From NCBI GenBank assembly GCA_963965975.1, contig OZ014421.1:315001-379000 (forward strand): DNA of 64,000 bases. The letters are read 5' to 3'. Under the pieces are notes generated by a model. That model was given only the letters and a program-made list of their open reading frames with translations. It ran no database searches and was not told the origin of the DNA. The stretch's first letter is position 1. Every line of letters starts with the position of its first letter. Positions 9,572 to 61,893 of this stretch are shown in pieces. Origin of the DNA: Xestospongia bergquistia (taxonomy: Eukaryota > Porifera > Demospongiae > Haplosclerida > Petrosiidae). Made by a program: the position numbers and the translations under genes.

Positions 9572-9600
9572 GACTTATAGTCAGTACTATGTAGTAGAAA

Positions 9601-20771: not shown

Positions 20772-20797
20772 GATGGCAGACCTTGAAGGCAACTGCT

Positions 20798-33954: not shown

Positions 33955-36900
33955 CTAATAAATGGTTTCATTGAAGTCTGTTATGATCTCTGACATTGTC
34001 GGACGTTCTCTACGATTCTCTTTCAAACATCGTTTAATAAGAGCTTTAAACGTTGGTCGTCTAATACTGTTAATATGAAGTTGTCTCTGAGCTATTTCAG
34101 GAATACGACAGATCATCATTTCAATCAAGACAACACCATAACTGTAAACATCCATTGCAGGAGAATGGTCTCTTGGTACACCAGCTTCTGGAGCAGAATA
34201 AATTGGATTACCTGGATTGACTGTACGACCAATCATTGGTTGAAGATTAGCTGAACCATAGTCTGATACCTTGGCTCTCCACCTACCAACAATTGGCAGT
34301 AACAGAACGTTAGCAGTGCTGACATCTCTATGTAGTATAGGGTCTGGTTTAAAGAGGTGGAGATAGTTGAGACCACAGGCTATATCTTGACTGATAGCTA
34401 AAACAGCATGATAGGGTAGAGGAGCAGTTTCTAGCTCTTTTCGAAGACTAGTTGGCATTAGTTCTGAGAGGATGATAGGAGTACCCACTTTAGTGGCTCC
34501 TATGAACTGAAGGAGATTAGGATGACGTACTCGAGCAGCAATCTCCATTTCTCTTGTAAAAACTGATTTGTTATATGGTGACAGGATAACTTCATGAAGA
34601 CATTTGGCAGCTACTCTAAGGCCACGAAATTTAGCCACCTTGACTTCTCCCCAACCTCCTTTCCCAAGGATCTCCTCAGTCATCTCAATCTCCTCCTTCC
34701 TTACTACCCAGTGAGACTGTTGTTGTAAGTGTTGAACCTGTTGAAGAGTAGTGTCAGCTTGATGTGTTTGTTGAAGAGCAGATGTTGACTCTTGGAGTTG
34801 TTGACGAAGATCATCATGTTCTCTGTGAAGTTCATCACACTCTTGACGTAGTACTCTTTCTCTCTCTTGACTATCTTGTAGCTGTTGTTGAAGAAACCAT
34901 TCTCTATTTTCATGTTCATGTTGAAGTGTAGCTTGAGTTTGTTGTTTCTCTTGAAGTTCTTGACGTACTTGATTTAGTTGTCTTTCTTTTGTTTGAAGGT
35001 CCTCTTGAAGCGCTCTTGTCAAATCTATCTGCTGTTGTTTGGTATCTTGTAGCTCTTTGTTGGTAACTTCAAGTTGTTGTGTTAAATGTTGTATTTCTCT
35101 ATCTTTCTCTTGTAAATCTTGATGTAATGAAGATGAAGGTTGAAGATGTGTAGGAGATTGGACAGTAAGTTGAGGTTTTTCATGTCTCACAAATGGTTGT
35201 ACAGATATTTCTTGTCTCTTCTGTTGTAGCTTAAGTTGATATTCTTCAGTAGATGTTAGGTTAGTTATTACATCTCCTACAGTCCACTGGTCATCATTAC
35301 ATACTACAGTGAGAGATATAGTATGTTACAATAGTATTGAGTTATGAGACTAGTTTGTAATATAAACAGTTAGTGTTCAATACTCCTATATCATACTGTA
35401 ATATTACTGATAATGTGTGTGTGTGTGTACTATATAACAAATACTATCATGAATAGACACTACTTACTAAGTTCTATCACTGTAGTATCATTGACTTTAC
35501 CCCTATAGAGTCCTAAAAGAGAACTTTTTATTCCACCAAATTGTACTACCCATACAGTGGTAGGTGACACATTCCATAATGAGAGGGAGTGACCATATCT
35601 CATAGTCACTGACTCTGGTATATTGAGCTATAAGATGGAATATAGCGTACTATATGACATTATAATAATGATGTTATGATATTACTACAAAACTAGTCAT
35701 TATACATGTAACATCAGTGGATACATGTACTCTAGTAACAGACTATAACTTTGTATGAACTGGTAGAGTTGATATGTTACAATACTTTAAAACATGAACA
35801 TAAGTACTTATGTACAGTCTTTAATAACTGAATTATAACTATAAACAAATCAGATATATCAATAGACTATACTATCATAAATGTTAACATACTATAGTGT
35901 CAGGACTACAGGTATAAAACCAGGTCATAAAAAAACAATAACTATTATTAATTATAAATTTTCTATAGATGAGGGTTAACTTCAGAGGTCAAAGTTTAAA
36001 TAGTCACACTTTATTATATCTCTTCATACTGTAGATCACAGACATTAACTCACTTTGTGTTAGTGTTAGGTCACATGATAACTAGTAACTAACCTTTGTC
36101 CATGTCTTTGTATCAGTGTTAAATAACCAGCTGTCATATGTACCAATTCCACCTACTATCATCACATGTAGGCCACTGATAATAGTAGTAGCATGATCAT
36201 ATCTACTCTGAGGCCAATTCACAGATTTAGGAAGTGGTTCACTTATCTTCTCCCAGTGCTAGGTAGATAATATTCAACTTAACATATTATACAATTAACA
36301 TAGGAGTAATTAATACTGTATAATGGGAAATGTTTAAGAATATTGTTCATTTTATAGTTTATGTGGATATTAATTTAGTTACAATATTTTATTGAAGACC
36401 TGGGACATCTATTTTAATATTGAACAACAACAGGAAAATTTACTTTTTGAGGATAATATTTTAAATATAATTGTGAATTATTAAAAGTTTCTAGAGTTAA
36501 AAGTGATTATGAACATTCCTAATAAACAATAGCTTTAAACTTTGTATATCAGTTAGTAAATGATAGATCAAGCATTGATACGACTTTTAAACAAATATTA
36601 CCTCCTTGTGAACTCAATTGTTTAAGGAATTTATCAAATTCTACCATTTCTGAATAGAAAAAATTTAATAAACTGCTTTTTTGTGTTGTTCACTTTCAGA
36701 CAAAACAACTTAACAATAGACAATTTTGTTGAGCAGTCATTATAGCATTTATTCAAGGATAGCATTTAACTTTGTTGGCTTACAGAAAAAAGGGAGGCTA
36801 CTTTTCAAGAGTGACATCTAGTCAAGGAAATATGGTATCACTATATAGTTGACTACAGGAATGTTTCAGTTATCAATATAACCTCTAAGTTGATTAAAGA

Positions 36901-37886
36901 AATATTAACAAACAATAAATCACTTGTTTATTAATAAAACAGTTCCTAATAATAATATAAAGACATTATATACTATAAATTTAGTTCTTTAAACTTGATT
37001 ACTCCACAATATTATATAGTAACTAAATACTTTAACTTAATACATATTGTACTCACCACTGCAGTCTTTGTACATTGAGCAATATACACAGTATTAATAG
37101 AACCATTACGAGTATTACCACCAAATAACAGAGCTCTGTTATATGGTAGTGATGTAAGAGTGAAGCCATTACAAGGAGGTGGGTGTTTTCCACTGATATC
37201 TGGTATTATCCATTGACCTGAAATACAAACAGTTATAAAATTGTACTTAATATATAATGTATTGATAACATGATATATTGATCTTCTTACCACTGGATAA
37301 CTGATAATAGTGGTGTTCATTTGTACGAACATTAGTACTAGGAGTATCACTATACTGAGCACCAGGTTGTGGAGAGGTTGGACGTGGACCATATCCACCA
37401 ACTACCAGTAGATAATCCACTTTATTGAATGTAAGAGATATCATCCCACAGTGTGACTTCATCATTGGACCCATACTTGGATTAGTTGGGAACAGTTCAT
37501 TCCATGTAAGTGAATCTGTTATTAATGAGTTGAGACTATTGTGATGACACTCACCACAATAGCCTCCAAAATAGTATATCCTGTTACTGATAACAGTAGA
37601 GGCATAGCAATAGACACACAGTGGAGGTTTTCCATTAGTAGGTCGTTGTTTCCATCTACCAGTTGGTAAGTGAAATAATTCAATAACAGAGGTCATCCTC
37701 TGTTTGACTTCATTATAATGTATTCTAGGGAGACCATCTATATTACCACCCCACATGTAGAGGTAGTCACCCACTATATATGTGGAGTGATGAGACCTCT
37801 TTGTAGGTACATAATAATCTGTAGAACATGATACACACACACACATAACAATAGATAATTATTATTATCATACCTGATCTGAACAT
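33955..37886 (-). CDS. Kelch, coiled-coil, TKL-like protein kinase (K1)
   Basis: Six exons: 37874-37886 (MFRS), 37291-37818, 37057-37217, 36094-36258, 35468-35627 and 33955-35303; the phases join to 791 aa. Residues 5-345 form a six-blade Kelch propeller (DYLYMWGG, RIYYFGGYC, DYLLVVGGYG, RALLFGGN, HVMIVGGIG, VWVVQFGG). Residues 400-540 are a Gln/Glu-rich coiled coil. A kinase domain follows from about 545: GKGGWGEV loop, VAAKCLH lysine, HRDVSTANVLL catalytic loop, SDYGSANL in place of DFG, SAPEAG and DVYSYGVVLIEMM. All catalytic residues (K, E, HRD, N, D) are there, so it should be active, probably as a TKL-group kinase. The long intron 3 (36259-37056) holds nothing I recognise. It lies head to head with the caspase gene at 39404. 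Confidence 0.85.
35414..35428. repeat. (GT)n microsatellite
   Basis: A TG run in the last intron of K1. Shorter versions stand at the same place in the paralogs (about 44775, 51500 and 57011). Confidence 0.8.
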
Positions 37887-38680
37887 CTTAGCTATTTCAG
37901 AGCTGGTGGTAGTTACACATACTTCCTTCAGGCAGCAATTCCATGCCCTCTTAATAATGAGCCACACCCTTTTTAAGATTTTAAGCTTGCCAAAATCTTC
38001 TGCAAGCGACCGTTAGGAACAATCATTATACATATCATATAGTACCATTATTGTCAAATTAGTACAGGTACTGTTAAGTGTGACAATATATTGAGAATGA
38101 TCCTCTACATTGATGTATTACTTCAGTGGTTTAGTAGCTGAATTATAGTCTATGAACTTAAAGATCATTATATAAGTGTTCTGTAGTATCCTATTGACAA
38201 TGACATCATACTAATATATTTAGCTATTATAAGCCAGGACAATATTATATAAGTTTCATACATTGTTATTAGTACAATTATAAGACAGATTTCATGCATT
38301 GCCTGCTCCTTCATATATAGAGAGTGTTCCTCTCTATTTGAAGGAGCTGGATATGATTGAAGAACAAACAAAGAATGGCCTAATGGACTATGATAGAGCT
38401 AGTTAATTCTTACTGCATGAAAACTGCATGTCGTCCATATTATACTATATTTGATTACATTAACCCTATGTGTGTTATCATTAACACACTTACGACAAAA
38501 TGTCTGTGTGAGAGTCAACTTGCTTACATTTCCACAAATGCTCACAAAACTTCGAGAAACAGACTCTTACTTCTCCTGTTCCTCTAATGATAAGAAATCA
38601 TTAAGACGATGAAAGCATATAATATCTATTGCAAAATTATTGTATACATGTACAACAATATAGTAGAAAGAAACTCAATA
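37887..38680. promoter_or_regulatory. Divergent promoter region of K1 and the caspase side
   Basis: No gene seen. Two blocks are kept among the duplicated units: 38005-38160 (GCAAGCGACCGTTA, TAGTACCATTATTGTCAAAT) matches 47340-47500 and, more weakly, 53690-53800 and 59815-59880; 38285-38400 (TGCCTGCTCCTTCA) matches 48665-48775 and 60070-60110. The open frames here are not kept between copies, which argues for noncoding sequence. Confidence 0.5.
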
Positions 38681-38712
38681 AGAAGAGGAAGTATATATAG
38701 TTACATATATGA
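38681..38712 (+). promoter_or_regulatory. Caspase-type core promoter box (now before a relic)
   Basis: AGAAGAGGAAGTATATATAG followed by TTACATATATGA. The same string lies exactly 183 and 176 bp before the ATGs of the caspase copies at 49227 and 60455. It joins an ETS/PU-box-like GAGGAAGT with a TATA-like run. Confidence 0.5.
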
Positions 38713-38898
38713 GGAGTGGATACAAGTTATCCTATTACTACTAATGTAATATAATACTCTACTATCAATGTTGGGACTGTACATCTGTCACAATACAAAG
38801 AACAGTCTTAATTTCTACAATAGGCTTGCATTGTGTAAGTTGTAATGGGTTGGTTTATCCATGTAATAAATCTCAAGGTCAGTTTACTAGGGCAAATA

Positions 38899-39070
38899 AT
38901 GGGCGAATATAGGAAGAGATGCTATGACAACTATTGATACTTATATTACTGATCTAGTAAATGTTATATCTGTAGGACTTGTGACAATAGTATTTGCATG
39001 TGCAGAAATAATTTAATTCCTACACTTCTCTGAAATAAGCTCACTGATACTTTAGTAGATGGTCATGACA
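38899..39070 (+). pseudogene. Relic of caspase exon 1
   Basis: Resembles 60455-60620 of the intact caspase (ATGGGCGAATATAGGAAGAG, TGCAGAAATAATTTAATTCC, CTCACTGATACTTT) but has stops and gaps, and its end runs straight into GATGGTCATGAC, the start of exon 2. After it, a second caspase upstream region leads to the live gene at 39404. The first-exon region was thus duplicated in tandem here and one copy died. Confidence 0.65.
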
Positions 39071-39403
39071 TATGGAAAACAAAATTAGTTATCTTATTAC
39101 TACTAATGTAATATAATACTCTACTATCTATATTGGGAGTACGGTGTACACCTGGGTTAGAGTGGGTTGGTTTATCCTTGTTAAAAATATCAAGGTTGAT
39201 TTACTAGGAAGTCTGTCAGGGCAATAGTTTTGATAATACTTGACATAATGACACCAAGATATATATAAACACCATTTACTGTATTAGAGTCTGTATGTAT
39301 TATAAATACTTGGTTGGTTAATAGTCTTTATTCTGTTAGACGATAGCATCAGATAATATTTGTGTACTTTCAATAGCTATTCAGACTGTATTGTGCACAA
39401 GTC

Positions 39404-42489: not shown

Positions 42490-42867
42490 CAAACTGTGTG
42501 ACTTTTGTATAGCTGCTGAGTTTTTGTACTAATACTGTAGTTAACTATATAAGTATTTTTTTAATAATAGTTTTTTTGTGAAGAAGAGATTAAATTCCAA
42601 ACTGTGTATGTTGTATATTATCTCATGGAGATATGGAAGGTGTTGATGGTGAACATATTTCAATGTTCCTATATGCCTCATGATTGAAAACAGATGAAGA
42701 AGGATTCAAGAAGCTAATAGAGTAGCCTGAGTTAATGGATGAATATTACATATGATACAAAATACACTATCATAACATACTTAACAAAAGAACTGACTTA
42801 TAACAAAATGTCTGTGTAAGAGTCAACTGGCTTACATTTCCATGCACCATTAGCTCACAAAAAAATA
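42490..42867 (+). pseudogene. Caspase relic and scrambled upstream fragments
   Basis: 42605-42662 matches the catalytic-His coding region of the caspase at 60455 (TATCTCATGGAGATA, GGAAGGTGTTGATGG, GAACATATTTC), but it stands alone with no catalytic Cys part. It is joined directly to 42663-42830, which resembles caspase upstream DNA (TATATGCCT..TGATTGAAAA; AAAATGTCTGTGT). This is a rearranged remnant of a further caspase copy. Confidence 0.65.
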
Positions 42868-43060: not shown

Positions 43061-43326
43061 GTCACAAAAAAGGGATTATTATAACTAATAATAAATACAG
43101 TCATACATACTGTTATTATTATAATAATCACACATTACCACTACCAATATAACATTAGTAACTATCATAATATTCACTATAACAATTATGTTAAAATCCA
43201 CTCATAATCAAAATGTCCAAATATGGTAATATTATTATAATAATCACACACAGTACAATACCTAAACTAACTATTATAATAACCTTACTACTAAAATTAT
43301 AACACACACTATATTATTGTACACTA

Positions 43327-46300
43327 TTAAATGGTTTCATTGAAGTCTGTTATGATCTCTGACATTGTTGGACGTTCTCTACGATTCTCCTTCAAACATC
43401 GCTCAATAAGAGCTTTAAATGTTGGTCGTCGAATACTGTTAATATGAAGTTGTCTCTGAGCTACCTCAGGAATATGACAGATCATCATTTCAATCAAGAC
43501 AACACCATAACTGTAAACATCCATTGCAGGAGAATGGTCTCTTGGTACACCAGCTTCTGGAGCAGAATAAACTGGATTACCTGGATTGACTGTACGACCA
43601 ATCATTGGTTGAAGATTAGCTGAACCATAGTCTGATACCTTGGCTCTCCAACTGCTACCAATTAACTGCAGAAGGACATTAGCAGTGCTGACATCTCTAT
43701 GTAGTATTGGGTCTGGTTTAAAGAGGTGGAGATAGTTGAGACCACAGGCTATATCTTGACTGATAGCTAAAACAGCATGATAGGGTAGAGGACCAGTTTC
43801 TAACTCTTGGCGAAGACTAGTTGGCATTAGTTCTGATAGGATGATAGGAGTACCCACTCGAGTGGCTCCTATGAACTGAAGGAGATTGGGATGACGTACT
43901 CGAGCAGCAATCTCCATTTCTCTTGTAAAAACTGATATGTTATATGGTGACAGGATAACTTCATGAAGACATTTGGCAGCCACTCTAAGGCCACAAAATT
44001 TAGCTACCTTGACTTCTCCCCAACCTCCTTTCCCAAGGATCTCCTCAGTCATCTCAATCTCATCCCTTCTTACTACCCAGTAAAATTGTTCTTGTAACTG
44101 TTGAACTTGTTGTTGAAGTGTGGTATTAGCTTGATGTGTTTGTTGAAGAGCAGTGGTTGACTCTTGGAGTTGTTGACGAAGATCTTCATGTTCTTGGCGA
44201 AGGTCATCAAACTCTTGACGTAGTACTCTTTCCCTCTCTTGACTATCCTGTAACTGTCGTCGTTCCCTCTCTTCTTGATCTTGTAGTTGTTGTTGAAGTA
44301 ACCTTTCTCTATTTCTGTGCTCACGTTCAAGATTAGCTTGAGTTTGTATTTTCTCTTGAAGTTCTTGACATAGTTGATGCAGTTGTCTTTCTTTTGTTTG
44401 AAGGTCCTCTTGAATTGCTCTTGTCATAACTATCTGCTGTTGTTTGGTATCTTGTAGCTCTTTGTTGGTAACTTCACATTGAATTTCTCGATCATTCTCT
44501 TGTAAATCTTGATGTAATGAAGATGAAGGTTGAAGACGTGTAGGAGATTGGACAGTAAGTTGAGGTTGTCCATGTCTCTTCTGTTGTAGCTTAAGTTGAT
44601 ATTCTTTAGTAGATGTTAGGTTAGTTATTACATCTCCTACAGTCCACTGGTCATCATTACATACTACAGTGAGAGATATAGTATGTTACAATAGTATTGA
44701 GTTATGAGACTAGTTTGTAATATAAACAGTTAATGTGTCAATACTCCTATATCATACTGTGATAATACTGATAATGTGTGTGTGTACTATATAACAAATA
44801 CTGTCATCAATAGACAGTACTTACTAAGTTCTATCACTGTAGTATTATTGACTTTACCCCTATAAAGTCCTAAAAGAGAACTTTGTATTCCACCAAATTG
44901 TACTACCCAGACAGTAGTAGGTGACACATTCCATAATGAGAGGGAGTGTTTATCTATCTTAGTCACTGACTCTGGTATATTGAGCTATAAGATGGAATAG
45001 AGTGTATTATATGACATTATAATAATGATGTTATGATATTACTACAAAACTAGTCATTATACATGTAACATCAGTGGATACATGTACTCTAGTAACAGAC
45101 TATAACTTTGTGTGAACCAGTAGAGTTGACATGTTACAATACTTTAAAACATGAACATAAGTACTTATGTACAGTCTTTAATAACTGAATTATAACTATA
45201 AACAAATCAGATATATCAATAGACTATACTATCATAAATGTTAACATACTATAGTGTCAGGACTACAGGTATAAAATCAGGTCATAAAAACAATAACAAT
45301 TATTAACTATAAAATGTCTATAGATTAGGGTTATTTCTGGAGGTCAAACTTTAAATTGTCCCCTCATACCGTAGATAATAGACATTAACTCACTTTGTGT
45401 TAATGTTTGGTCACAGGATAACTAGTAACTAACCTTTGTCCATGTCTTTGTATCAATGTTAAATAACCAGCTGTCACCAACAGTACCAAGTGTTATATCA
45501 TATCCACCCACTATCATCACATGTAGGTCACTGATAATAGTGGTGGCATGATCATATCTACTCTGAGGCCAATTCACAGATTTAGGAAGTGGTTCACTTA
45601 TCTTCTTCCAGTGCTAGGTAGATAATATTCAAGTTAACATATTATATAATTATCATAGCAGTAATTAATACTGTATAGGAAATGTTTAAGAATATTGTTC
45701 ATTTTATAGTTTATGTGGATTTTCATTTAGTTACAATATTTTATTGAAGACCTGGAACATCTATTTCAATATTGAATAACAACAGGAAAATTTACTATTT
45801 GAGGATAATATTTGAAATATAATTGTGAATTATTAAAGTTTCTAGAATTAAAAGTGAGTCTGAACATTCCTGATAAACAATATCTTTAAACTTTGTATAT
45901 CAGTTAGTAAATGATAGATCAAGCTTTGACAGTTTTAAGCAAATTGTTTAAGGAATTTATCAAATTCTACATTTTCTGAATAGAAAAAACCCCTACTTTT
46001 TGTGTTGTTCACTTTCAGACAAAACAACTTAACAATAGACAATTTTGTTGAGCAATCATTGTAGCATTTATTCAAGGATAGCATTAAGGCTCATTGACTT
46101 ACAGAAAAAAGGGAGGCTACTATTCATGAGTGACATTTATTCAAGGAAATATGGTATCACTATATAGTTGACTAAAGGAACGTTTCAGTTATCAGTATAA
46201 CCTCTAAGTTGATTAAAGAAATATTAACAAACAATGAATCACTTGTTTAATAATAAAACAGTTCCTAATAATAATATAAAGACATTATATACTATAAATT

Positions 46301-47224
46301 TAGTTCATTTAATAATATCAAACTTTAAACTTGATTACTCCACAATATTATACAGTAACTAAATACTTTAACTTAATACATATTGTACTCACCACTGCAG
46401 TCTTTGTACACTGAGCAATATACACAGTGTTAATATCACCATTAGGAGTATCACCACCAAATAACAGAGCTCTGTTATTAGGTAGTGATGTAAGAGTGAA
46501 GCTACTACAAGGAGGTGGGTGTTCTCCACTGATATCTGGTAGTATCCACTGACCTGAAAAACAAACAGTTGTAAAATTGTACTTGATATATAATGTATTA
46601 ATAACATGATATATTGATCTTCTTACCACTGGATAACTGATAATAGTGGTGTTCATTAGTACGAACGTTACCACCGAAAACATCACTATACTGAGCACCA
46701 GATTGTGGAAAAGTGGGACGTAAACCATATCCACCAACTACCAGTAGATAATCCACTTCATTGAATGTAAGTGATATCATCCCACAGTGTGACTTCATCA
46801 TTGGACCCATACTTGGATTAGTTGGGAACAGTTCATTCCATGTAAGTGAATCTGTTATTAATGAGTTGACACTATTGTGACGACACTGCCCATGATTACA
46901 ATAGCCTCCAAAATAGTAGATCCTGTTACTGATAACAGTAGAAGCATAATAATAGAGACCCAGTGGAGGTTTTCCATTAGTAGGTCGTTGTTCCCATCTA
47001 CCAGTTGGTAAGTGAAATAACTCAATAACAGAGGTCATCCTCCATTTGAATTCATTATCATGTACTGTAGGGAGACCATCTACATCACCACCCCACATGT
47101 AGAGGTAGTCACCCACTATATGTGTAGAGTGATCTGACCTCTTTGCAGGTACATAATAATCTGTAGAACATGACACACACAGATAACAATAGATAATTAT
47201 TGTTATCATACCTGATCTAAACAT
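43327..47224 (-). CDS. Kelch, coiled-coil, TKL-like protein kinase (K2)
   Basis: Six exons: 47212-47224, 46627-47160, 46393-46553, 45434-45613, 44825-44984 and 43327-44663, phase-consistent, about 794 aa. Same plan as K1: six Kelch blades, a Gln/Glu-rich coiled coil, then the kinase domain (GKGGWGEV, VAAKCLH, HRDVSTANVLL, SDYGSANL). Differences from K1: two extra residues in a Kelch loop (CNHGQCRH), a longer fourth exon (VGGYDITLGTVGDSW), and a slightly different coiled coil with extra QEERERRQ. The kinase domain is over 90 percent the same by eye. Intact. Its partner caspase at 49227 is broken. Confidence 0.85.
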
Positions 47225-48648: not shown

Positions 48649-49226
48649 TTAAGACAATATTAATGCATGGCCTGCTCCTTCACATAGAGAGAGTGTTCCT
48701 CTCTATTTAAAGGAGTTGGATATGATTGAAGAACAAACAAAGAATGGTCTAATGGACTGTGATAGAGCTAGCTATAGCCTCAGTTAATTCTTACTGCATG
48801 AAACTGCATATGGTCCAAACTATACTATATTTGATTACATCAACACTGTGTGTGTTATTATTAACATACTTATGATAAATTCTCTGTGTTAACTGAATTA
48901 CACATTCATACATGCATTAACTCACCAAAGTTTAAGAAGTACACTCTACTTCTCCTTTTCCTCTGATGGTACAAAATCCTTAAGATTGTGAAACATAGAG
49001 TATCTGTTGTTTATACAATTATCAAGTAGGAAGGAAACACAATAAGAAGAGGAAGTATATATAGTTACATATATGAAGAGTGGACACTAGTTATCTTATC
49101 ACTACAAATGTAATATAATACTCTACTATCTCTATTAGGAGTGTACCCCTTTCATAATCATAATTGGGTTAGAGTGGGTTGGTTTATCCATGTACTACAT
49201 ATCAAGGTCAGTTTACTAGGTGAAAA
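48649..49226 (+). promoter_or_regulatory. Upstream region of the broken caspase C2
   Basis: 48665-48775 holds the TGGCCTGCTCCTTCA block; 49044-49075 holds AGAAGAGGAAGTATATATAG followed by TTACATATATGA, the caspase core-promoter box also seen at 38681 and 60279. The promoter therefore survives although the gene is broken. Confidence 0.5.
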
Positions 49227-49990
49227 ATGGCTGATAACAGATTAGGAAGAGATGCTAAGGTAGCTTATATTACTGAGATAGTGAAAGTTATATTTGAAGC
49301 ATTCGAGGCAATAGTAGATGCATGTACAGAAAGGAATTTAATTTCTATAGCACCTTCAAAAAATCTTACTGATACTTTTAGTGGTCAAACTACAGAACAA
49401 AGAACTGGAAAACTTATTCAATCTATTTTGTCATCTGTTGAATTTGAATTTATATCCAGTATAGATTATTATAACTCTCTAATTAATATGTTCTTATTAT
49501 AGTTGACTATGATCTACCTTCTTACAACAGTCTAATAGGTGATCATACTGATATAGAAGAAAGTGTCCCTACTACTACCACTGGAGGATCAGGTATGACC
49601 TTCTTGTATCTTACTATTGGCATTTTGTTTTCCATGTAGATGAAGGTATTGTTTCTGGTATAAAAAGAAAAAAAGATGAAAATGTATGTCATATACTTTT
49701 TCTTAATTACATGTATACATTTCATAGACTGAAACTGATTGTTTGTGGCCATTTAGTAAAAAACGTCATGTTGATGATAATGATCCTTTCTATTACTATC
49801 ATATGGAAGCTAAATCAGGACATGGAATAACTTTAATCATTAACAATGAATATTGGAATGATCTTGATGGTAAACACACTGGATCAAAAGAAGTCATTGT
49901 CACCAGAGGATGATTTTTTTAGCTTTAGTACTTGTTGAGACAATGTTGCTTTGTGCTCAAAGGAAAAAGCTCTGTTTATATTTAAGCGCT
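49227..49990 (+). pseudogene. Broken caspase (C2)
   Basis: Very close to the intact caspase at 60455 but incomplete. Exon 1 (MADNRLGRDAKVAY ... SGQTTEQRTGKLIQS) loses about 60 bp at its end together with the splice donor. Exons 2 and 3 are kept (about 49504-49593 and 49640-49682). Exon 4 starts normally (ETDCLWPFSKKRHVDDND) and then jumps from near TGSKE to a bit of the FSTC region, losing the catalytic His and Cys, and ends where the 3' flank of kinase K3 begins (about 49990). At most a free CARD-like prodomain could be made. Confidence 0.85.
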
Positions 49991-50050
49991 CTAACTATTA
50001 TAATAACCTCACTATTAAAATTATAACACACACTATATTATTGTATAATA

Positions 50051-53000
50051 TTAAATGGTTTCATTGAAGTTTGTTATGATCTCTGACATTGTTGGACGTT
50101 CTCTATGATTCTCTTTCAAACATCGTTCAATAAGACCTTTAAACATTGGTTGTCTAATACTGTTAATATGAAGTTGTCTCTGAGCTATTTCAGGAATACG
50201 ACAGATCATCATTTCAATCAAGACAACACCATAACTGTAAACATCCATTGCAGGAGAATGGTCTCTTGGTATACCAGCTTCTGGAGCAGAATAAACTGGA
50301 TTACCTGGATTGACTGTATGACCAATCATTGGTTGAAGATTAGCTGAACCATAGTCCGATACCTTGGCTCTCCACCCACCACTAATTGGCTGAAGAAGGA
50401 CATTAGCAGTGCTGACATCTCTATGTAGTATTGGGTCTGGTTTAAAGAGGTGGAGATAGTTGAGACCACAGGCTATATCTTGACTGATAGCTAAAACAGC
50501 ATGATAGGGTAGAGGACCAGACTCTAGCTCTTTACGAAGACTAGTTGGCATTAGTTCTGATAGGATGATAGGAGTACCCACTCGAGTGGCTCCTATGAAC
50601 TGGAGGAGATTAGGATGACGTACTCGAGCAGCAATCTCCATTTCTCGTGTAAAAACTGATATGTTATATGGTGACAGGATAACTTCATGAAGATATTTGG
50701 CAGCTACTCTAAGGCCACGAAATTTAGCCACCTTAACTTCTCCCCAACCTCCTTTTCCAAGAACCTCCTCAGTCATCTTGATCTCCTCTGTCCTCACTAC
50801 CCAGTGAGATTGTTCTTGTAACTGTTGAACTTGTTGTTGAAGAGTGGCATTAGCTTGCTGTGTTTGTTGAAGAGCAATGGTTGAGTCCTGAAATTGTTGA
50901 CGAAAATTATCACGTTCTTGACATAGTTGTCTTTCCCTCTCTTCTTGATCTTGTAGCTGTTGTTGAAGTAACCTTTCTCTATTTTCATGATCTCTTAGTT
51001 CACGTTGAAGTATAGCTTGAGTTTGTTGTTTCTCTTGAAGTTCTTGATGTAGTTGATGTAGTTGTCTTTCTTTTGTTTCAAGGTCCTCTTGAAGAGCTCT
51101 TGTTATATCTATCTGCTGTTGTTTGGTATCTTGTTGCTCTTTGTTGGTAACATCAAGTTGTCGTGTTAAACATTGAATTTCTCTATTTTTGTCTTGTGGC
51201 TCTTGATGTGATGAAGAAGGTTGAAGATATGTAGGAGATTGGACAGTAAGTTGAGGTTCTTCATGTGTCATAAAAGGTTGTATAGATGTTTCTTGTCTCT
51301 TCTGTCGTAGCTTAAGTTGGTATTCTTCAGTTGACCTCAGGTTAGTTATTACATCTCCTAGAGACCACTGTTCATCATTACATACTACAGTGAGAGATAT
51401 AAAATATTATAATATTATTGAGTTATGAGACTAGTTTGTAATATAAACAGTTAGTGTGTCAACACTCCTATATCATACTGTGATAATACTGATAATGTGT
51501 GTGTGTACTATATAACAAATACTTAATACTATTATCAATAGACAGTACTTACTAAGTTCTATCACTGTAGTATTATTGAGTTTACTAAAATCTTTAAATC
51601 CTCCAAATTGTATTACCCATACAGTGGTAGTTGACACATTCCATACTGAAAGTGAGTGTTTATCTATCTTAGTCACTGACTCTGGTATATTGAGCTATAA
51701 GATGGAATATAGTGTACTATATGACATTATAATAATGATGTTATGATATTACTACAAAACTAGTCATTATACATGTAACATCAGTGGATACATGTACTCT
51801 AGTAACAGACTATAACTTTGTATGAACTGGTAGAGTTGACATGTTACAATACTTTAAAACATTAACTCACTTTGTGTTAGTCATAGGTCACATGATAACT
51901 AGTAACTAACCTTTGTCCATGTCTTTGTATCAATGTTAAATAACCAGCTGTCAGTAATAAATTTTAATGATTTGTCCATTCCACCTACCACCAGTACATG
52001 TAGGTCACTGATAATAGTGGCAGCATGGCCATGTCTTCTCTGGGGCCAATTCACAGAGTTAGGAAGTGGTTCACTTATCTTCTGCCAGTGCTAGGTAGAT
52101 AATATTCAAGTTAACATATTATACAATTAACATAGCAGTAATTAATACTGTATACTGGGAAATGTTTAAGAATATTGTTTATTTTATAGTTTATATGGAT
52201 TTTTATTTAGTTACTATATTTCCTTTATAAGACCTGGGACATCTATTTCAATATTGATCAACAACAGGGACATTTACTATTTGAGGTCAATATTAAAAAT
52301 TTAATTGTGAATTGGACAACTTTGCAATAGACAAATAACTAAATGTCCCTTTTTAGACAAAAAATTTAGCAATAAACCCTTTGTTGAGGAGCCATTACAG
52401 CATTTATTCAAGGGCTGTGTCAATTTCACTGACATACAGAAAAAAGGAGGCTACTATTCAAGAGTGACATTTATTCAAGGAAATATGGTATCACCATATA
52501 GTTGACTAAAGGAATGTTTCAGTTATCAATATAACCTCTAAGTTGATTAAAGATATTAACAAAACAATGAATGACTTGTTTATTAATAAAACAGTTCCTA
52601 ATAATATTATAAAGACATTATATACTATAAATTTAGTTCATTCAACAATATCAAACTTTAAACTTGATTACTCCACAATATTATACAGTAACTAAATACT
52701 TTTAACTTAATACAATATTGTACTCACCACTGCAGTCTTTGTACACTGAGCAATATACACAGTGTTACCATAACCATCAGGAATATCACCACCAAATAAC
52801 AGAGCTCTGTTATTAGGTAGTGATGTAAGAGTGAAGGAATAACAAGGAGGTGGGTGTTCTCCACTAATATCTGGTAGTATCCATTGACCTGAAATATAAA
52901 CAGTTATTTGATGTATAATGTATTGATAACATGATATATTGATCTTCTTACCACTGGATAACTGATAATAGTGGTGTTCATTAGTACGAACATTATTACT

Positions 53001-53556
53001 AGGAGTATAACCATACTGAGCACCAGGTTGTGGAAAGGTGGGTTCTAGACCAATACCACCAACTACCAGGAGACAATCCATGTTACTGAATGTAAGAGAT
53101 ATCATCCCACAGTGTGACTTCATCATTGGTCCCATACTTGGATTAATTGGGTACAGTTCATTCCATGTAAGTGAATCTGTTATTAATGAGTTAAGACTAT
53201 TGTGACGACACTCGTCATGACTACAATAGCCTCCAAAATAGTAGATCCTATTACTGATAACAGTAGAGGCATAACTAGAGATACCCAGTGGAGGTTTTCC
53301 ATTAGTAGGTCGTTGTTCCCATTTACCAGTTGGTAAGTGAAATAACTCAATAACAGAGGTCATCCTCTGTTTGACTTCATTATCATGTACTCTAGGGACA
53401 CCATCTATACTACCACCCCACATATAGAGGTAGTCACCCACTATATGTGTGGAGTGATGAGACCTCTTTGTAGGTACATAATAATCTGTAGAACATGACA
53501 CACACACATATAACAATAGATATTATTATTATCATACCTGATCTACGTGTAGCCAT
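50051..53556 (-). CDS. Kelch, coiled-coil, TKL-like protein kinase (K3)
   Basis: Six exons: 53538-53556 (MATRRS), 52952-53485, 52728-52888, 51911-52090, 51553-51694 and 50051-51384, about 789 aa. Kelch blades, coiled coil and kinase motifs as in K1 (GKGGWGEV, VAAKYLHE, HRDVSTANVLL, SDYGSANL). Odd: the second intron is only 63 nt, a multiple of three without a stop, so its retention would add 21 residues and keep the frame; in the other copies it is 73 nt. The fifth exon is six codons shorter than in K1 and K2. No caspase partner follows; a METAP1 fragment comes directly upstream of its promoter. Confidence 0.85.
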
Positions 53557-53869
53557 TTCAGAACTTGTAGTAGTAATGTTTACTCTTTGTTGTCTTGTGA
53601 CTTTGAAATGGATACGCCCTCTAAATAATTAGACACACCCTCTCTTTAGATTCTATTAGTGACGAGCCTTGTCATTTGCAAGTAATTTAATAGACTATTA
53701 AGTACCATTATTATATATTATATGTGGTACCATTATTGTAAAGTTAGTACAGGTGCTGTTATATGTGACAATATACTAAGATTGATCCTCTATAAGTGGA
53801 TTAGCAGCAGTCAATGGATTTAAAGATCAATATATAATTAGACAGCAGAATGTTAGTTATGTTATTATT
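53557..53869. other. Promoter side of K3
   Basis: Keeps part of the kinase promoter block (GGTACCATTATTGTAAAGTT, 53727-53800). No gene seen. Confidence 0.45.
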
Positions 53870-54020
53870 ATTATGGGGGCTAACTCTTTATTAGGATGGT
53901 AAACATTCAGCTCAATTTGAACATACTATACTGGTTATTGAAACTGGTTATGAAATGTTGAGATTACGAGAAGGAGGTTTACCTCATATAAATAATAACT
54001 TGTAATTACAAAATTAATAC
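53870..54020 (+). pseudogene. METAP1 last-exon fragment (copy 2)
   Basis: Second copy of the METAP1 3' piece ([40 protein letters not shown]), more diverged than the one at 42868. Its last residues before the stop are shortened. No promoter. Confidence 0.88.
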
Positions 54021-54460
54021 CGTAAACGTCAAAATTTTCGCGGTAGTTATATTTTCGCGGTTGAGTGACATCGCGAAAATTAGATTCGCGAATAATTAAA
54101 TTTAATATTTCACCACGTGCTATGATGTCTTTGCTTTGATACATGAAAAGATTGGATACAACAAACGATGATCTCCCCCACTCAAGAGGCTCGCTTTCTT
54201 CCTGTATATCTTCAATAGCTATTGAGAGAGCAAATGAGGAAGTAAGAACTCAAAAAAGAAGTCTAATAAACGTGGAGCATACCAAAAGTATTCTGAAGAA
54301 TCGAGAGCAAAGATTGCTCTTTATGCTGTTAGACACGGCGTGCCTGCTGCAGTCAGGTACTGTTCAAGAGAACTGAGGATCAACATTAATGAATCTACAA
54401 TAAGATCATTTAAGTCTGCTTACATAGAAGAGCTAAAGTCACAAAGAATAATGTAAATGA
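54021..54460 (+). mobile_element. DNA-transposon-derived insertion with HTH-like domain fragment
   Basis: Interrupts the METAP1 3' flank, which continues at about 54463 as in the other copies. It starts with ATTTTCGCGG/CGCGAAAAT motifs (54033-54090). A short open frame follows (MKRLDTTNDDLPHSRGSLSS ...), then in the next frame AYQKYSEESRAKIALYAVRH and INESTIRSFKSAYIEEL, a helix-turn-helix type seen in sponge transposon proteins. A frame change near 54240 separates the two parts and there is no catalytic domain, so this is a broken fragment. Confidence 0.55.
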
Positions 54461-54614
54461 AAACAGTCACAAAAAAGGATTATTATAACTAATAATAAAT
54501 ATAGTCATAGATTCCATTATTAATGTAATAATCACACATAGTACAATAACTAAACTAACTATTATAATAACCTCACTATTAAAATTATAACACACACTGT
54601 ATTATTGTATATTA

Positions 54615-57600
54615 TTAAATTGTTTCATTGAAATCTGTTATGATCTCTGACATTTTTGGACGTTCTCTGCGATTCTCTTTCAAACATCGTTCAATAAGAG
54701 CTTTAAACATTGGTCGTCTAATACTGTTAATATGAAGTTGTCTCTGAGCTACCACAGGAATACGACAGATCATCATTTCAATCAAGACAACACCATAACT
54801 GTAAACATCCATTGCAGGAGAATGGTCTCTTGGTACACCAGCTTCTGGAGCAGAATAAACTGGATTACCTGGATTGACAGTATGACCAATCATTGGCTGA
54901 AGATTAGCTGAACCATAGTCGGATACCTTGGCTTTCCATTTACCACTAATTGGCTGAAGAAGGACATTAGCAGTGCTGACATCTCTATGTAGTATTGGGT
55001 CTGGTTTAAAGAGGTGGAGATAGTTGAGACCACAGGCTATATCTTGACTGATAGTCAGAACAGCAGGATAGGGTAGAGGACCAGTTTCTAGCTCTTTTCG
55101 AAGACTAGTTGGCATTAGTTCTGAGAGGATGATAGGAGCACCCACTCGAGTGGCTCCTATGAACTGAAGGAGATTGGGATGACGTACTCGAGCGGCAATC
55201 TCCATTTCTCTTGTAAAAACTGATATGTTATATGGTGATAGGATAACTTCATGAAGACATTTGGCAGCCACTCTGAGGCCACGAAATTTAGCCACCTTGA
55301 CTTCTCCCCAACCTCCTTTCCCAAGGACCTCCTCACTCATCTCAATCTCATCCCTCTTTACTACCCAGTAAAACTTTTCTTGTAACTGTTGAACTTGTTG
55401 TTGAAGAGTGTTATTAACTTGCTGTGTTTGTTGAAGAGCAGAGGTTGACTCTTGGAGTTGTTGACAAAGATCTTGTTCAATGATGTCATGTTGTTGACGA
55501 TAATCATCAAGTTCTCGGTGAAGATTATCACACTCTTGACGTAGTACTCTTTCTCTCTCTTGACTATATTGTAGCTGTCGTTGAAGTAACCTTTCTCTAT
55601 TTTCATACTCATGTTGAAGAGTAGCTTGAGTTTGTTTTTTCTTTTGAAGTTCTATGCGTAATTGATGTAGTTGACTTTCTTTTGTCTGAAGACCTTCTCG
55701 AAGAACTCTTTCTCTCTCTTGATTATCTTGTAGCTGTCGTTGAAGTAACCTTTCTCTATTTTCATGCTCATGTTGAAGAGTAGCTTGAGTTTGTTTTTTC
55801 TCTTGAAGTTCTATACCTAATTGATGTAGTTGTCTTTCTTTTGTCTGAAGATCCTCTCGAAGAACTCTTTCTCTATCTTGATTATCCTGTAGCTGTCGTT
55901 GAAGTAACCTTTCTCTATTTTCATGCTCATGTTGAAGAGTAGCTTGAGTTTGTTGTTTCTCTTGAAGTTCTATACCTAATTGATGTAGTTGTCTTTCTTT
56001 TATCTGAAGGTCCTCTTGAAGGACTCTTTCTCTCTCTTGACTGTCTTGTAGCTCATGTTGAATTTTAGCTTGAGTTTGTTGTTTCTCTTGAAGTTCTTGA
56101 TGTAGTTGATGTAGTCTTAGTTGATCTGGTTGTATTTCTTTTGTCTGAAGGTCTTGACATAGTTGAAGTTGTTGTTGAAGAGCGGTATTAGCTTGACGTG
56201 TTTGGTGAAGAGCAGTGGTTGACTCTTGGAGCTGTCGACGAAGATCTCGTTTGACATTGTCACATTGTTGACGGTAATCATCATGTTCTCGCCGAAGGTC
56301 ATCACACTCTTGACATAGTATTTTTTCTCTCTCTCGACTATCCTGTAGCTGTTGTTGAAGTAATCTTTCTCTATTTTCTTGCTCATGATGAAGAGTAGCT
56401 TGAGTTTGTTGTTTCTCTTGAAGTTCTGTACGAAGTTGATATAGTCGTAATTGATCTAGTTGTATTTCTTTTGTCTGAAGGTCCTCTTGAAGAACTTTTT
56501 CTCTCTCTTGACCATCTTGTAGCTCATGTTGAAGTGTAGCTTGAGTTTGTTGTTTCTCTTGAAGTTCTTGACGTAGTTGATTTAGTTGTCTTTCTTTTCT
56601 TTGAAGGTTCTCTTGAAGAACTCTTGTCATATCTATCTGCTGTTGTTTGGTATCTTGTAGCTCTTTGTTGGTAACTTCAAGTTGTTGTGTTAAATGTTGT
56701 ATTTCTGTATCTTTCTCTTGTGACTCTTGATGGAGTAAAGAAGAAGGTCGAAAACGTCTAAGAGTTTGGACAGCAAGTTGAGGTTGCCAATGTCTCCAAG
56801 AAGTTTGTGCAGACATTTCTTGTGTATATCTTTTTTGTTGTAGCTTAAGTTCGTATTCTTCAGTGGACATCAGGTTAGTGATTACATCTCCTAGAGACCA
56901 CTGGTCATCATTGCATACTACAGTGAGAGTTATAGTATTTTGAGACTAGTTTGTAATATAAACAGTTAGTGTGTCAATACTCCTATATCATACTGTGATA
57001 ATAATGATAATGTGTGTGTGTGTACTATATAACAAATAATAGACACTACTTACTAAGTTCTATCACTGTAGTATCATTGAGTTTGTTAATAAATTTATAT
57101 CCTCCAAATTGTATTACCCATACAGTGGTAGGTGACACATTCCATACTGAGAGGGAGTGGCCATCTCTCATAGTCACTGACTCTGGTATATTGAGCTATA
57201 AGATGGAATATAGTGTACTATATGACATTATAAAAATGATGTTATGATATTACTACAAAACTAGTCATTATACATGTAACATCAGTGGATACATGTACTC
57301 TAGTAACAGATTATAACTTTGTATGAACTGGTAGAGTTGACATGTTACAATACTTTAAAACATGAACATAAGTACTTATGTACAGTCTTTAATAACTGAA
57401 TTATAACTATAAACAAATCAGATATATCAATAGACTATACTATCATAAATGTTAACATACTATAGTGTCAGGACTACAGGTATAAAACCAGGTCATAAAA
57501 AACAATAACTATTATTGATCACATGATAACTAGTAACTAACCTTTGTCCATGTCTTTGTATCAATGTTAAATAACCAGCCGTCAAGTGTCACTGATGTAG

Positions 57601-59650
57601 CACCCATTCCACTCACTATCATCACATGTAGGTCACTGATAATGGTGGTAGCATGACCATATCTACTCTGAGGCCAATTCACCGATTTGTGAAGTGGTTC
57701 ACTTATCTTCTCCCAGTGCTGGATAGATAATACTCAAATTAACATATTATACAATTGACATAGCAGTAATTAATACTGTATACTGTATACTGGGAAATGT
57801 TTAAGGAAATTGTTCTTTTTATAGTAATTTAGGTATTATTTTTCATTCAATAAAACCTGGGAATCTATTTCAATATTGAACAACAACAGGGAAATTTACT
57901 ATTTGAGGACATTACCTAATCAAGGACAGTATTTAAAATATAATTGTGAATCATTAAAGTTTCTAGAGTTAAAAGTGATTCTGAACATTCCTGATAAACA
58001 ATAGCTTTAAACTTTGTATATCAGTTAGTAAATGATAGATCAACCATTGACAGAACTTTTAAACAAATATTACCTCTTAATTGTTTAAGGACTTTATCAA
58101 AATACAGTTATTTCATGACTGAATAAACATTTTTTAAAAATAAAAATTATCTTTTTTTTGCATTTTCCACTTAGACAAAACAACTTAATATTAATTAATA
58201 TAATATTATATATGTTATTATTATATATATATAATATTAATATTAATAATCAATTATGATGTAATTGACAGAGTTTTAAGTAAATGTCATTTCTTGTGAA
58301 CTTAATTGTTTAAGTAATCTTGCAAACTGTAGCTATTTTCTGACTGATAAAATTTTTTTGTAATGAAACTTTTTTTGTGTTGTTTGCTATTAGACTGGAC
58401 AACTTTGTAATAGACAATTTTGCCAAGAAGCATTACAGAATTTATTCAAGGTAGCACCAATTTAGCTGACATATAGAAAAAAGGAGGCTTCTATTGGCTA
58501 CTCCGCAAGAGTGGCATTTAATCAAGGAAATATGATATCACTTTAATTGACTAAAGGAATGTTTCAGTTATCAAATTCTTTAATCAACTTAGAGGCTATA
58601 TTGACAATATAACCTCTAAGTTGATTAAAGAAATATTAACAAACAATGAATCACTTCTTTATTAATAAAACAGTTCCTAATAATAATATATAAAGACATT
58701 ATTTACTATAAATTTAGTTCATTTAATAATATCAAACTTTAAACTTGATTACTCCACAATATTATGCATTAATTAAATACTTTAACTTAATACATATTGT
58801 ACTCACCACTGCAGTCTTTGTACACTGAGCAATATACACAGTGTTAATAGGACCATTAGGAGTATAGCCACCAAACAGCAGAGCTCTGTTATTTGGTAGT
58901 GATGTAAGAGTGAAGGAATAACAAGGAGGTGGACATTCTCCACTAATTTCTGGTAGTATCCATTGACCTGAAATTCAAACAGTTATAAAATTGTACTTGA
59001 TGTATAATGTATTAATAACATGATATATTGATCTTCTTACCACTGGATAACTGATAATAGTGGTGCTCATTAGTACGAACATCACCACCCATTATTCCCT
59101 TATCACTATACTGAGCACCAGGTTGTGGAGAGATAGGATGTGGACCAATACCACCAACTACCAGTAAATAGTCTGCTTTCTTGAATGTAAGAGATATCAT
59201 CCCACAACTTGACTTCATCATTGGACCCATACTTTGATTAGTTGGGAACAGTTCATTCCATGTAAGTGAATCTGTTATTAATGAGTTCAGACTATTGTGA
59301 CGACACTTGTCATGATTACAACGTCCCCCAAAATAGTAGATCCTGTTACTAATAACAGTAGAAGCATAGCTATTGACACCCAGTGGAGGTTTCCCATTGG
59401 TAGGTCGCTGTTCCCATTTACCAGTTGGTAAGTGAAATATGTCAATAACAGAGGTCATCCTCCATTTGACTTCATTATCATGTACCTTAGGGAGACCATC
59501 TATATTACCACCCCACATGTAGAGGTAGTCACCCACTATATGTGTGCAGTGACGGTTCCTCTTTGTAGGTATATAATAATCTATGGAACATTACACACAT
59601 TCATAACAATACATAGCTACTATTATCATACCTGATAAAGGTGTAGTCAT
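54615..59650 (-). CDS. Kelch, long coiled-coil, TKL-like protein kinase (K4)
   Basis: Six exons: 59632-59650 (MTTPLS), 59041-59580, 58807-58967, 57542-57718, 57054-57195 and 54615-56917, about 1113 aa. Kelch and kinase parts as in K1-K3. The coiled coil is over 300 residues longer: it contains three nearly identical 53-residue units (LQDNQERERVLRE..LQTKE, QLHQLGIELQEKKQTQATLQ, HEHENRERLLQRQ) and older, more diverged ones, all within the last exon (repeat array about 55560-56040). A longer rod would set propeller and kinase further apart or change oligomer state. Kinase motifs are complete (GKGGWGEV, VAAKCLH, HRDVSTANVLL, SDYGSANL). Head to head with the intact caspase at 60455. Confidence 0.85.
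55560..56040 (-). repeat. In-frame tandem repeat, 159-bp unit, three near-identical copies
   Basis: Encodes the 53-residue coiled-coil unit of K4. Units start at about 55580, 55740 and 55900. Absent from K1-K3. Confidence 0.85.
58576..58632. repeat. Inverted repeat in K4 intron
   Basis: TTCTTTAATCAACTTAGAGG pairs with CCTCTAAGTTGATTAAAGAA around a 17-nt centre. K1-K3 have only the right arm at this place, so the left arm is a local inverted copy made in K4. AT-rich palindromic runs also lie at 58190-58255. Confidence 0.8.
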
Positions 59651-60454
59651 TTCTGAACGTAGTGGAGGTTACATATAATCTTTGATGTTGTTTCTTGTTA
59701 CAGCAAACTATGCAAGAAATGTTAAAAATGGACACGCCCTAACATAATAATCCAAGATTAGGAACATTGCCAAAGAATAGAAAAATTTTTATTCAAGTGA
59801 TCTAATAGACTATTAGGTAGCCATTATTATACATCATTATGATACCATTATTGTCAAGTTAGCACAAGTGATGTACAATGCTGTCCTGGTCCATAATAGT
59901 TATATGATGTCTGTTATAAAGACACTGCACAGCACTTATGTACTGATCTTTATCTCTTCACTTAAGCAGTTTGTCACTTATAGATGATCAATCTTTTGTT
60001 GATTCCAGTACATTGTTGAACATTACCAGTACAACTATAAGACAATACAGTCTGGATGCACAAGGCAACATGGCCTGCTCCTTCACATATGTAGAGAGAG
60101 TTCCTCCCTATGTGAAAGAGCTAGACATATATCCCTATATGCCTAATGATTGAAAACAGATGAAGAAGGATCCAAGAAACTAATAGAGTAGTCTGAGTTA
60201 CTGCTTAAGACTATGAAAACATAGAATATCTATTGTGAACATACATCATATACAATCATCAGGTAGGGAGGAAACTCAAGAAGAGGAAGTATATATAGTT
60301 ACATATATGAAGAGTGGACACTAGTTATCTTATCACTACTAATGTAATATAATACTCTACTATCTATGTAGGAGTGTACACCTGTCATAATTGTGTTAGA
60401 GTGGGTTGGTTTATCCATGTACTACGTATCAAGACCAGTTTACTAGGGTGAAAA
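59651..60454. promoter_or_regulatory. Divergent promoter of K4 and caspase C3
   Basis: An 800-bp shared upstream region. It holds a weak copy of the kinase-side block (59815-59880), the TGGCCTGCTCCTTCA block (about 60070), and the caspase core box AGAAGAGGAAGTATATATAG at 60279-60298 with TTACATATATGA to 60310. A 60-codon open frame at 59971-60153 is not kept in the other copies and is not called a gene. Confidence 0.5.
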
Positions 60455-61893
60455 ATGGCTGATAAAAGATTAGGAAGAGATGCTAAGGCAGCTATTCGTG
60501 CTAACATTACTGATCTAGGGAAAGTTATATCTGAAGCACTTGTGACGATAGTAGGTGCATGTGCAGAAAATAATTTAATTCCTACAGCCCTTTCAAACAA
60601 CCTCACTGATACTTTTAGTGGTCAAACCACTGAACAAAGAACTAGAAAACTTATTGACTCTATCCAGTCATCTGTTGAATCTTTTCCAAATAATCTGGAC
60701 ACTTTTCTTTGTATATTGATTGACAGTCAAGACAGTATACTTACTCAAACAGTAGCAGCTAATATTGCTAGAAAATGTAAGTACTTATAGTATTGTAACT
60801 GTCTAATTCATATGCTACTATTATAGATGGTCATGACCTACCTTCTTACAACAGTCTAATAGGTGATCATACTGATATAGGAGAAAGTGTCCCTACTACT
60901 ACCACTGGAGGATCTGGTAAGTCTTCTTCCTGTATCTTACTATTGACATATTGTTTTCCATGTAGATGAAGGTGTTGTTTCTGGCGTAAAAAGAAAAAAA
61001 GAGGAAGAAAAAGATGAAAATGTATGTCATATAATTTTTCTTAATAACATGTATACATTTCATAGACTGAAGCTGATTGTTTGTGGCCATTTAGTAAAAA
61101 ACGTCGTGTTGATGATAATGATCCTTTCTATTACTATCCTATGGAAGCTAAATCAGAACGGGGAATAGCTTTAATCATTAACAATGAATATTGGAATGAT
61201 GATCCTGATGGTAAAAAAACTCGCACTGGATCAAAAGAAGATGCCGAAAAACTCAAAAAAACCTTTGAAGATCTTTGTTATGTTGTTGAAGTCCTTCCTA
61301 ATCTAGAATGTGAGGAGATGAAACAAAAATTATATAAGTTAGCAAAAGGAAGGATTTCTAAAGATCATGACAGCTTTATATGTTGTATACTATCTCATGG
61401 AGATACATCAGGTGTGGAAGGTGTTGATGGGGAACATATTCCAGTGGGTGACTTAGCCTCTTTAGTAAATGGCAACAATTGCTCCAAACTCCTTGGAAAA
61501 CCTAAAATTTTCTTTATCCAAGCTTGTCGTGGTGAAAATATACCTGAACCACTTGAACTAGATAATACTAAAGATGAGGACATTGCTACAGTGGATGGAG
61601 GAAAATACAAGTCATTGCCACCAGAGGCAGATTTCTTTTTCAGCTTTAGTACTTGTCAAGATAATGTTGCTTCACGCTCAAAGGAAAAAGGCTCTGCTTA
61701 TATTCAAGAGCTCTCTGCTGTCCTTAACAAGTATGCTTCAACTCTTAGCCTTGATGAGATGGCAATGCTGGTACATGACAGAGTGTCCAAAGAGAAGCGT
61801 ACAGTTCGTCATGGTGGGAAGGATTACCCATTTCAACAAATACCTGAGATTATCAGTCGACTACGAGGCAAAGTATACTTCAAGAAAAACTGA
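60455..61893 (+). CDS. Caspase with death-fold (CARD-like) prodomain (C3)
   Basis: Four exons: 60455-60776, 60827-60916, 60966-61021 and 61066-61893, about 431 aa. Prodomain residues 1-108 (DKRLGRDAKAAIRANI, NNLTDTFSGQTTEQRTRKLI, ESFPNNLDTFLCILID) fit a CARD-like helical bundle. A short linker with a basic patch (GVKRKKEEEK, SKKRRVDD) may be a nuclear signal. The peptidase C14A domain is complete: GIALIINNEYW, RTGSKEDAEKLKKTF with the substrate-binding Arg, catalytic His in CCILSHGD, catalytic Cys in FFIQACRGE, an Asp-rich intersubunit linker (LELDNTKDEDIATVD, a likely self-cleavage site), then SFSTCQDNVASRSKEKGSAY with the second Arg. An active initiator-type caspase is expected. Pairs head to head with kinase K4. 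Confidence 0.9.

Follow-up and report, generated by a model that had tools for sequence, protein, structure and literature searches.

CARD caspases, as well as NLRs with CARD or Death domains, have been reported in Porifera (PMC11508797), and FADD and CASP8 proteins of Amphimedon have been tested (PMC13012725). The genes listed as responding to microbial signals in two further sponges include kinases and genes with Kelch motifs (PMC6208332). Head-to-head transcription is possible for 18,054 genes (45%) of Amphimedon queenslandica, of which 11,379 have transcription starts less than 1 kb apart, and its genes are separated by a median of 587 bp (PMC4773876). These statements follow the accessible parts of the four papers. 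Neither Kelch-coiled-coil-TKL kinases nor this kinase-caspase pair were found described in the accessible parts of the literature searched, outside of which most subscription papers fall. Here, we analyzed a stretch of 64,000 nucleotides from the sponge Xestospongia bergquistia (contig OZ014421.1, positions 315,001 to 379,000), hereafter called the window. Between 33.6 and 62 kb of the window lie four minus-strand Kelch/coiled-coil/TKL kinase genes (K1-K4), together with plus-strand caspases. A sequence-only reading of this DNA had seen a kinase-caspase pair that was amplified as a unit, and this suggested a tempting two-gene circuit. It was replaced by a better-supported story, in which sensor-like kinases were retained and are diversifying and death proteases were copied and mostly lost. 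We give a probability of about 60% to the interpretation that the locus holds cytosolic Kelch-receptor kinases, a tandem family in which ligand recognition is diversifying and from which the co-copied CARD-caspase neighbour was mostly discarded.

The head-to-head arrangement itself was confirmed. The start codons of the kinases, rebuilt from splice sites, were at 37886 (K1), 47224 (K2) and 59650 (K4) and the starts of the caspases at 39404 (C1), 49227 (C2) and 60455 (C3), exactly where they had been placed. The start-to-start gaps were 1517 bp for K1-C1, 2002 bp for K2-C2 and 804 bp for K4-C3. In all three units (units 1, 2 and 4), the alignment revealed the same order: the kinase start is followed by the spacer elements, then by the 5′ region of the caspase and its exon 1. 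Spacer element b, for example, was found at 38297-38354, 48666-48723 and 60069-60128. As the spacer blocks are colinear, an ancestral divergent pair was copied. Thus, the divergent pair arose once, and the three units represent one history rather than three independent observations. The K2-C2 spacer also contains about 1 kb unmatched in the other spacers, within which a 94-bp tandem repeat is present in three copies (48001-48278).

The pairing had been counted three times, and one side had been thought to be broken only in the middle unit. Neither statement survived. A fourth kinase gene, K3 (50051-53556, minus strand), has an open frame, lacks a caspase and had been left out. Its upstream region is bordered immediately by the 3′ flank of K4; pieces of C1 or C3 gave no tblastn match in 53557-54614 at E-values up to 1. 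In unit 1, the colinear caspase is not C1 but a broken relic, C0 (38899-39065, plus strand), a first-exon scrap which is colinear with C2 and C3 and whose frame is closed by stops. It sits in a stretch, 38281-39065, that aligns to 48650-49387. C2 (49227-49992, plus strand) is a pseudogene. It has lost the end of the prodomain exon as well as the segment with both catalytic residues, and it contains a stop codon. Its alignment has junctions at 49443/49460, 49891-49893 and 49991-49992, and the homology to C3 stops at the 3′ flank of K3. C3 (60455-61893, plus strand; four exons, 431 aa) is the only intact colinear partner, with a CARD-like prodomain and an intact caspase domain.

In addition, C1 (39404-42489, plus strand) has a CARD-like exon and an intact caspase domain, joined by a linker exon whose splicing is putative: two of the five splicing choices tried were open (395 and 358 aa) and three were not. 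Intact caspases are thus the next complete divergent genes for both K1 (C1) and K4 (C3). Pfam assigned Peptidase_C14 to C1 (E = 4e-39) and C3 (E = 7e-54), and the catalytic motifs SHG and QACRG were present in both. Scraps of a further unit were found at 42607-42737 on the plus strand. They consist of a caspase catalytic fragment (42607-42665) and a fragment of a kinase-caspase spacer (42668-42737), with identities of 81% to C3 (61379-61446) and 93% to the K4-C3 spacer (60134-60203), respectively. No relatives of the prodomain were found in prokaryotic genome contigs and none of the caspase domain in viral contigs, collections that are uninformative on other sponges.

The synonymous divergence (Ks) separated C1 from the other copies. 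Among the kinase domains, Ks was 0.115-0.167 in the six pairs, and for Kelch exon 2 it was 0.104-0.223, with K4 being the most distant. By comparison, the catalytic exons of C1 and C3 differed by a Ks of 0.955 and their prodomains by 0.83, and the prodomains of C1 and C2 differed by 0.96. The identity of exon-1 DNA was 82% for C0-C3 and 72% for C0-C2, versus 57% for both C1-C2 and C1-C3. Because of these Ks values and exon-1 identities, C1 was identified as an older paralog located behind C0. Its age and the C0 relic together indicate that the kinase-caspase co-duplication involved C0, C2 and C3; on the same two grounds, C1 was rejected as the co-duplicated partner of K1. The amplification of a pair as a unit therefore holds for the ancestral divergent pair, but not for the starts at 37886 and 39404. 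Between C2 and C3, the prodomain Ks of 0.24 is comparable to that of the kinases, but Ks was 0.02 in a linker of 48 codons, so these two copies may have exchanged sequence. On the kinase side, up to 38287/47629, units 1 and 2 share 89% identity, which drops to 75% beyond this point toward the caspase. It is likely that their kinase half was homogenised later.

If a functional pair had been co-amplified, both members would be expected intact in the duplicated units and equally divergent. Across the four units, the colinear caspase is intact in C3, without both catalytic residues in C2, a scrap in C0 and absent at K3. All four kinases are open, as against one of the four colinear caspases (60455-61893), and the Ks of C1-C3 is far above that of the kinases. 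The kinases were kept and the pairs were mostly lost.

The four kinase genes follow a common plan. A tiny exon 1 is followed by exons 2-5, which encode a six-bladed Kelch propeller with six GG motifs, and by a last exon with a coiled coil and the kinase domain. The splice sites are kept in all four genes, and all frames are open. K1 (33955-37886, minus strand; six exons, 798 aa) was obtained by splice reconstruction together with Pfam matches to Kelch and Pkinase, and it shows the six Kelch blades, the coiled coil and the TKL-type kinase. K2 (43327-47224, minus strand; six exons, 801 aa) was assigned by alignment, as the Pfam scan covered exons of K1, K3 and K4. In the scanned exons, Kelch was found in K1 and K3 and Pkinase in K1 (E = 4e-30 for its kinase domain) and K4. 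K3 also has six exons and encodes 796 aa, and the solved Kelch proteins closest to its frame 52728-53486 were KLHDC3 (E = 4.6e-20) and KLHDC2 (E = 2.4e-14) among 13 matches. K4 (54615-59650, minus strand; six exons, 1120 aa) is longer than the others (~800 aa). An in-frame 159-bp tandem repeat at 55546-56053, found only in this copy, extends its coiled coil.

The motifs VAAK, HRD, DYG (in place of DFG) and APE were present in all four kinases. The solved kinases nearest to the K1 domain began with TAK1, CTR1 and IRAK4 (best 60 of 1651 matches). By these catalytic motifs and nearest structures, the kinase domain of K1-K4 is assigned to the TKL group. No death domain or CARD was recognised by Pfam in the exons scanned, and the spliced proteins consist of Kelch, coiled coil and kinase. 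A signal peptide or membrane span was not evident by reading, to which no predictor was added. The kinase domains are under constraint, with ratios of nonsynonymous to synonymous divergence (Ka/Ks) of 0.22-0.35 per pair and 0.27 when pooled. No relatives of the kinase domain were found in prokaryotic and viral contig collections, which are uninformative on other sponges.

The Kelch propeller showed a different pattern of change from the kinase domain. Amino-acid differences among K1-K4 affected 90 of 336 Kelch codons and were clustered: 72 near-neighbour pairs were observed versus 47.6 expected, and none of 5000 shuffles gave as many. The same shuffle test revealed no clustering of synonymous Kelch changes or of changes in the kinase domain. 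We then divided the Kelch codons by blade grammar into loops and strands, which left 27 of 342 codons unlabelled. In Kelch proteins such as KEAP1, the ligand face is made up of the D-A and B-C loops. In K1-K4, 57 of 117 codons in these loops were variable and Ka/Ks was 1.25. The loops of the opposite face (A-B and C-D) had 7 variable codons among 42 (Ka/Ks = 0.58), and the strands had 21 among 156 (Ka/Ks = 0.22). The proportion of variable codons in the top loops (D-A and B-C) differed significantly from those in the strands (P = 2e-10) and in the bottom loops (P = 2e-4). Ka/Ks of the top loops exceeded 1 in five of the six kinase pairs, and their Ka was 1.32 times the domain-wide Ks (1.01-1.66). 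When model M2a was compared with M1a on Kelch, a positively selected class was favored over three topologies, with twice the log-likelihood difference (2dL) ranging from 26.4 to 36.4, all significant (P = 2e-6 for 26.4). This signal was absent in the kinase domain. The loop divergence and the conserved kinase domain suggest a diversifying family of intracellular sensors, as far as can be judged from these codon comparisons.

A number of observations weigh against diversification in ligand recognition. The bootstrap interval of the top-loop Ka/Ks spans 1 (0.83-2.03), and the loop labels were assigned after the variability had been seen. When codons with triple differences were left out, 2dL fell to 13.1 (P = 0.001, 328 codons), and after the removal of 43 of the 342 codons, those with multiple hits, the M2a signal was gone. 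Variability in the coiled coil (67 of 174 codons) is at least as high as in Kelch (92 of 342; 35 of 250 in the kinase domain). Four TRIM-NHL paralogs of the window served as a control, and their propeller also varies more than the rest, with a Ka/Ks of 0.60 versus 0.37 for RING/B-box/coil. Their filamin-like part showed clustered changes (35 versus 20.7, none of 3000 shuffles as high), and their NHL part was clustered weakly (125 versus 115.5, P = 0.056). Recombination between paralogs can also mimic selection. For K4-C3 and K1-C1, whose caspases are still in place, a kinase-caspase circuit is conceivable. The evidence for positive selection on the Kelch face is not robust. Its acceptance as established was rejected on account of the dependence on multi-hit codons, and we retain it as suggestive.

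The history and function that we prefer are as follows. A single ancestral head-to-head neighbourhood, with the kinase on the minus strand and a CARD-caspase on the plus strand, was copied by tandem segmental duplication. The kinases were retained with constrained kinase domains and most of the co-copied caspases decayed, a birth-and-death pattern. The kinases are most likely cytosolic and of receptor type, and one face of their six-bladed Kelch propeller would bind a variable ligand. The coiled coil would oligomerise the kinase and so bring its TKL domains close to one another, as in kinases like TAK1 or IRAK4, and the paralogs would vary the ligand loops and keep one signalling output. C1 and C3 would be CARD-type initiator-like caspases, probably activated by CARD partners elsewhere (e.g. 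CARD-NLRs) and not directly by the kinase. In this scheme, the gene anatomy, the history of the array, the caspase decay and the divergence focused on the loops are shown, and ligand binding, oligomerisation and the pathway are inferred. As no death fold was recognised in the kinase, there is no apparent route by which it could recruit the caspase directly. Should diversifying selection on the Kelch face be real, this family would be a concrete candidate, open to testing, for variable recognition within the cells of a sponge-like animal.

The CARD in this scheme deserves some caution. The sequence-only reading had given the caspases a death-fold prodomain. This label is supported by structure prediction, in which the prodomains appeared CARD-like, whereas no sequence model detected a CARD. 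The three prodomains had no Pfam match to CARD at E-values up to 10, a search in which the HMMER filters discard most weak matches, and no profile match to a solved CARD or to another death-fold family was obtained. Structures were predicted for the prodomain exons of C3 and of C1, in both cases with an alignment of three sequences. Both models were all-helical, with mean predicted local distance difference test (pLDDT) values of 85.4 (C3) and 91.3 (C1). In Foldseek comparisons with PDB, for which the best 50 of 348 matches (C3) and the best 50 of 118 (C1) were considered, nine and eight of the listed matches, respectively, had probabilities of at least 0.80, and CARD was named in the titles of eight of the nine and seven of the eight. 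The two remaining ones, ICEBERG and a chain of the Apaf-1-caspase-9 holoenzyme, are CARDs as well. The best E-values, 0.45 and 0.44, are not significant alone. Among the matches listed for C1, death domains of Fas/FADD rank lower, with probabilities of 0.30-0.44. By the predicted structures, which are the only ground for the label, the caspase prodomain is likely, though not proven, to be a CARD.

Among the alternatives, passive hitchhiking survived best, although we consider it clearly less probable than a diversifying family of receptor kinases. The neighbours would have been carried along in a duplication-prone, gene-dense region, the functions of kinase and caspase would be unrelated, and the Kelch loop variation would reflect relaxed constraint. 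The window indeed holds other duplicated genes, a TRIM-NHL array and a pair of beta-helix genes. The decay of the caspase copies, the dependence of the M2a signal on multi-hit codons and the propeller variation in the TRIM-NHL paralogs would also be expected. However, relaxed constraint does not readily explain why the changes are one-sided, concentrated in the D-A and B-C loops rather than in those of the opposite face, or why the kinase domain shows no clustering and is under purifying selection.

It is improbable, in our opinion, that a co-regulated module of sensor kinase and death caspase was amplified and kept as a pair, serving immune or allorecognition cell death. Such a module had been proposed from the linked duplication. 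The duplication of kinase and caspase did happen, and the ancestral divergent pair is still recognizable in three colinear units; K1-C1 and K4-C3 are still in place, and the prodomains have CARD-like predicted structures. Moreover, a caspase 5′ core on the plus strand is conserved in C0, C1, C2 and C3 (38724-38891, 39086-39208, 49088-49220 and 60322-60447; 78-93% identity in pairwise comparisons). The fate of the copies, four kinases to one colinear caspase, does not fit a retained pair, however. C1 was not co-duplicated, and the kinase has no recognised death fold. The upstream regions did not argue for co-regulation either. When upstream stretches of ~280-340 bases from four kinase and four caspase copies were compared for exact matches (degenerate sites fall outside this comparison), all eight had three 6-mers in common, but no exact motif of 7 to 10 bases. 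With the caspase set, two intron controls had 12 and 17 6-mers and two and four 7-mers in common, although these came from larger conserved sets. If the host sponge is comparable to Amphimedon, where head-to-head genes are frequent, one head-to-head adjacency would be ordinary.

Within the caspase 5′ core, ~45 bp are almost unchanged in C1 despite its old coding sequence (Ks = 0.83-0.96). This segment is either a conserved element or was gained by recombination.

The least probable proposal seems to us very doubtful. In it, hypervariable intracellular receptors (constant TKL output, positively selected Kelch face) would work with the adjacent CARD caspases (K4-C3 and K1-C1) as a polymorphic death system of the sponge, serving immunity or allorecognition, and the caspase copies would have been pruned against self-killing.

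The surroundings of the kinase-caspase array are as follows. On its left is a plus-strand open frame of 424 aa (29556-30830), which had no Pfam or NCBIfam match at E-values up to 0.01. Its right border is a minus-strand sybindin-like gene (61996-62448), located tail to tail with C3. The TRIM-NHL tandem array (603-16261, minus strand) comprises four copies with long open frames, plus one in which the frame is split at ~4725-4834; the one copy scanned by Pfam had RING, B-box, filamin and NHL. Two large paralogous genes at 17163-25373 matched a right-handed beta-helix and had hydrophobic C-terminal stretches by eye, and the second contains a tandem array with a period of 87-90 bp (~23714-24715). 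The GC content is ~28-37% in the window.

In comparison with known systems, C1 and C3 resemble CARD initiator caspases of sponges and other animals (caspase-1, -2 and -9, and the CED-3 type) in that a helical prodomain, CARD-like by prediction, precedes a caspase domain in which SHG and QACRG are kept. They differ in that the three prodomains here lack a Pfam CARD match, and in that, among solved structures, the caspase domains score best against the effector caspases 3, 6 and 7. K1-K4 resemble the TKL sensor kinases IRAK4 and TAK1/MAP3K7, with the RIPK family as a functional analogue, in their TKL-like domain with VAAK, HRD, DYG and APE. Unlike them, K1-K4 have an N-terminal Kelch propeller and a coiled coil; a RIPK-type death-fold kinase is not indicated, as the exons scanned contained no recognised death domain or CARD. 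The array shares its head-to-head order with the bidirectional pairs of Amphimedon, and the 804 bp between the start codons of K4 and C3 can be set beside the limit of 1 kb between transcription starts used in the accessible part of PMC4773876, whereas K1-C1 (1517 bp) and K2-C2 (2002 bp) are more than 1 kb apart between start codons. Among solved proteins, the six-bladed Kelch receptors KLHDC2 and KLHDC3 matched the Kelch frame of K3 best. In contrast to these receptors, the Kelch propeller here is fused to a kinase, and the loops of one face, which may bind ligands, differ among tandem paralogs.

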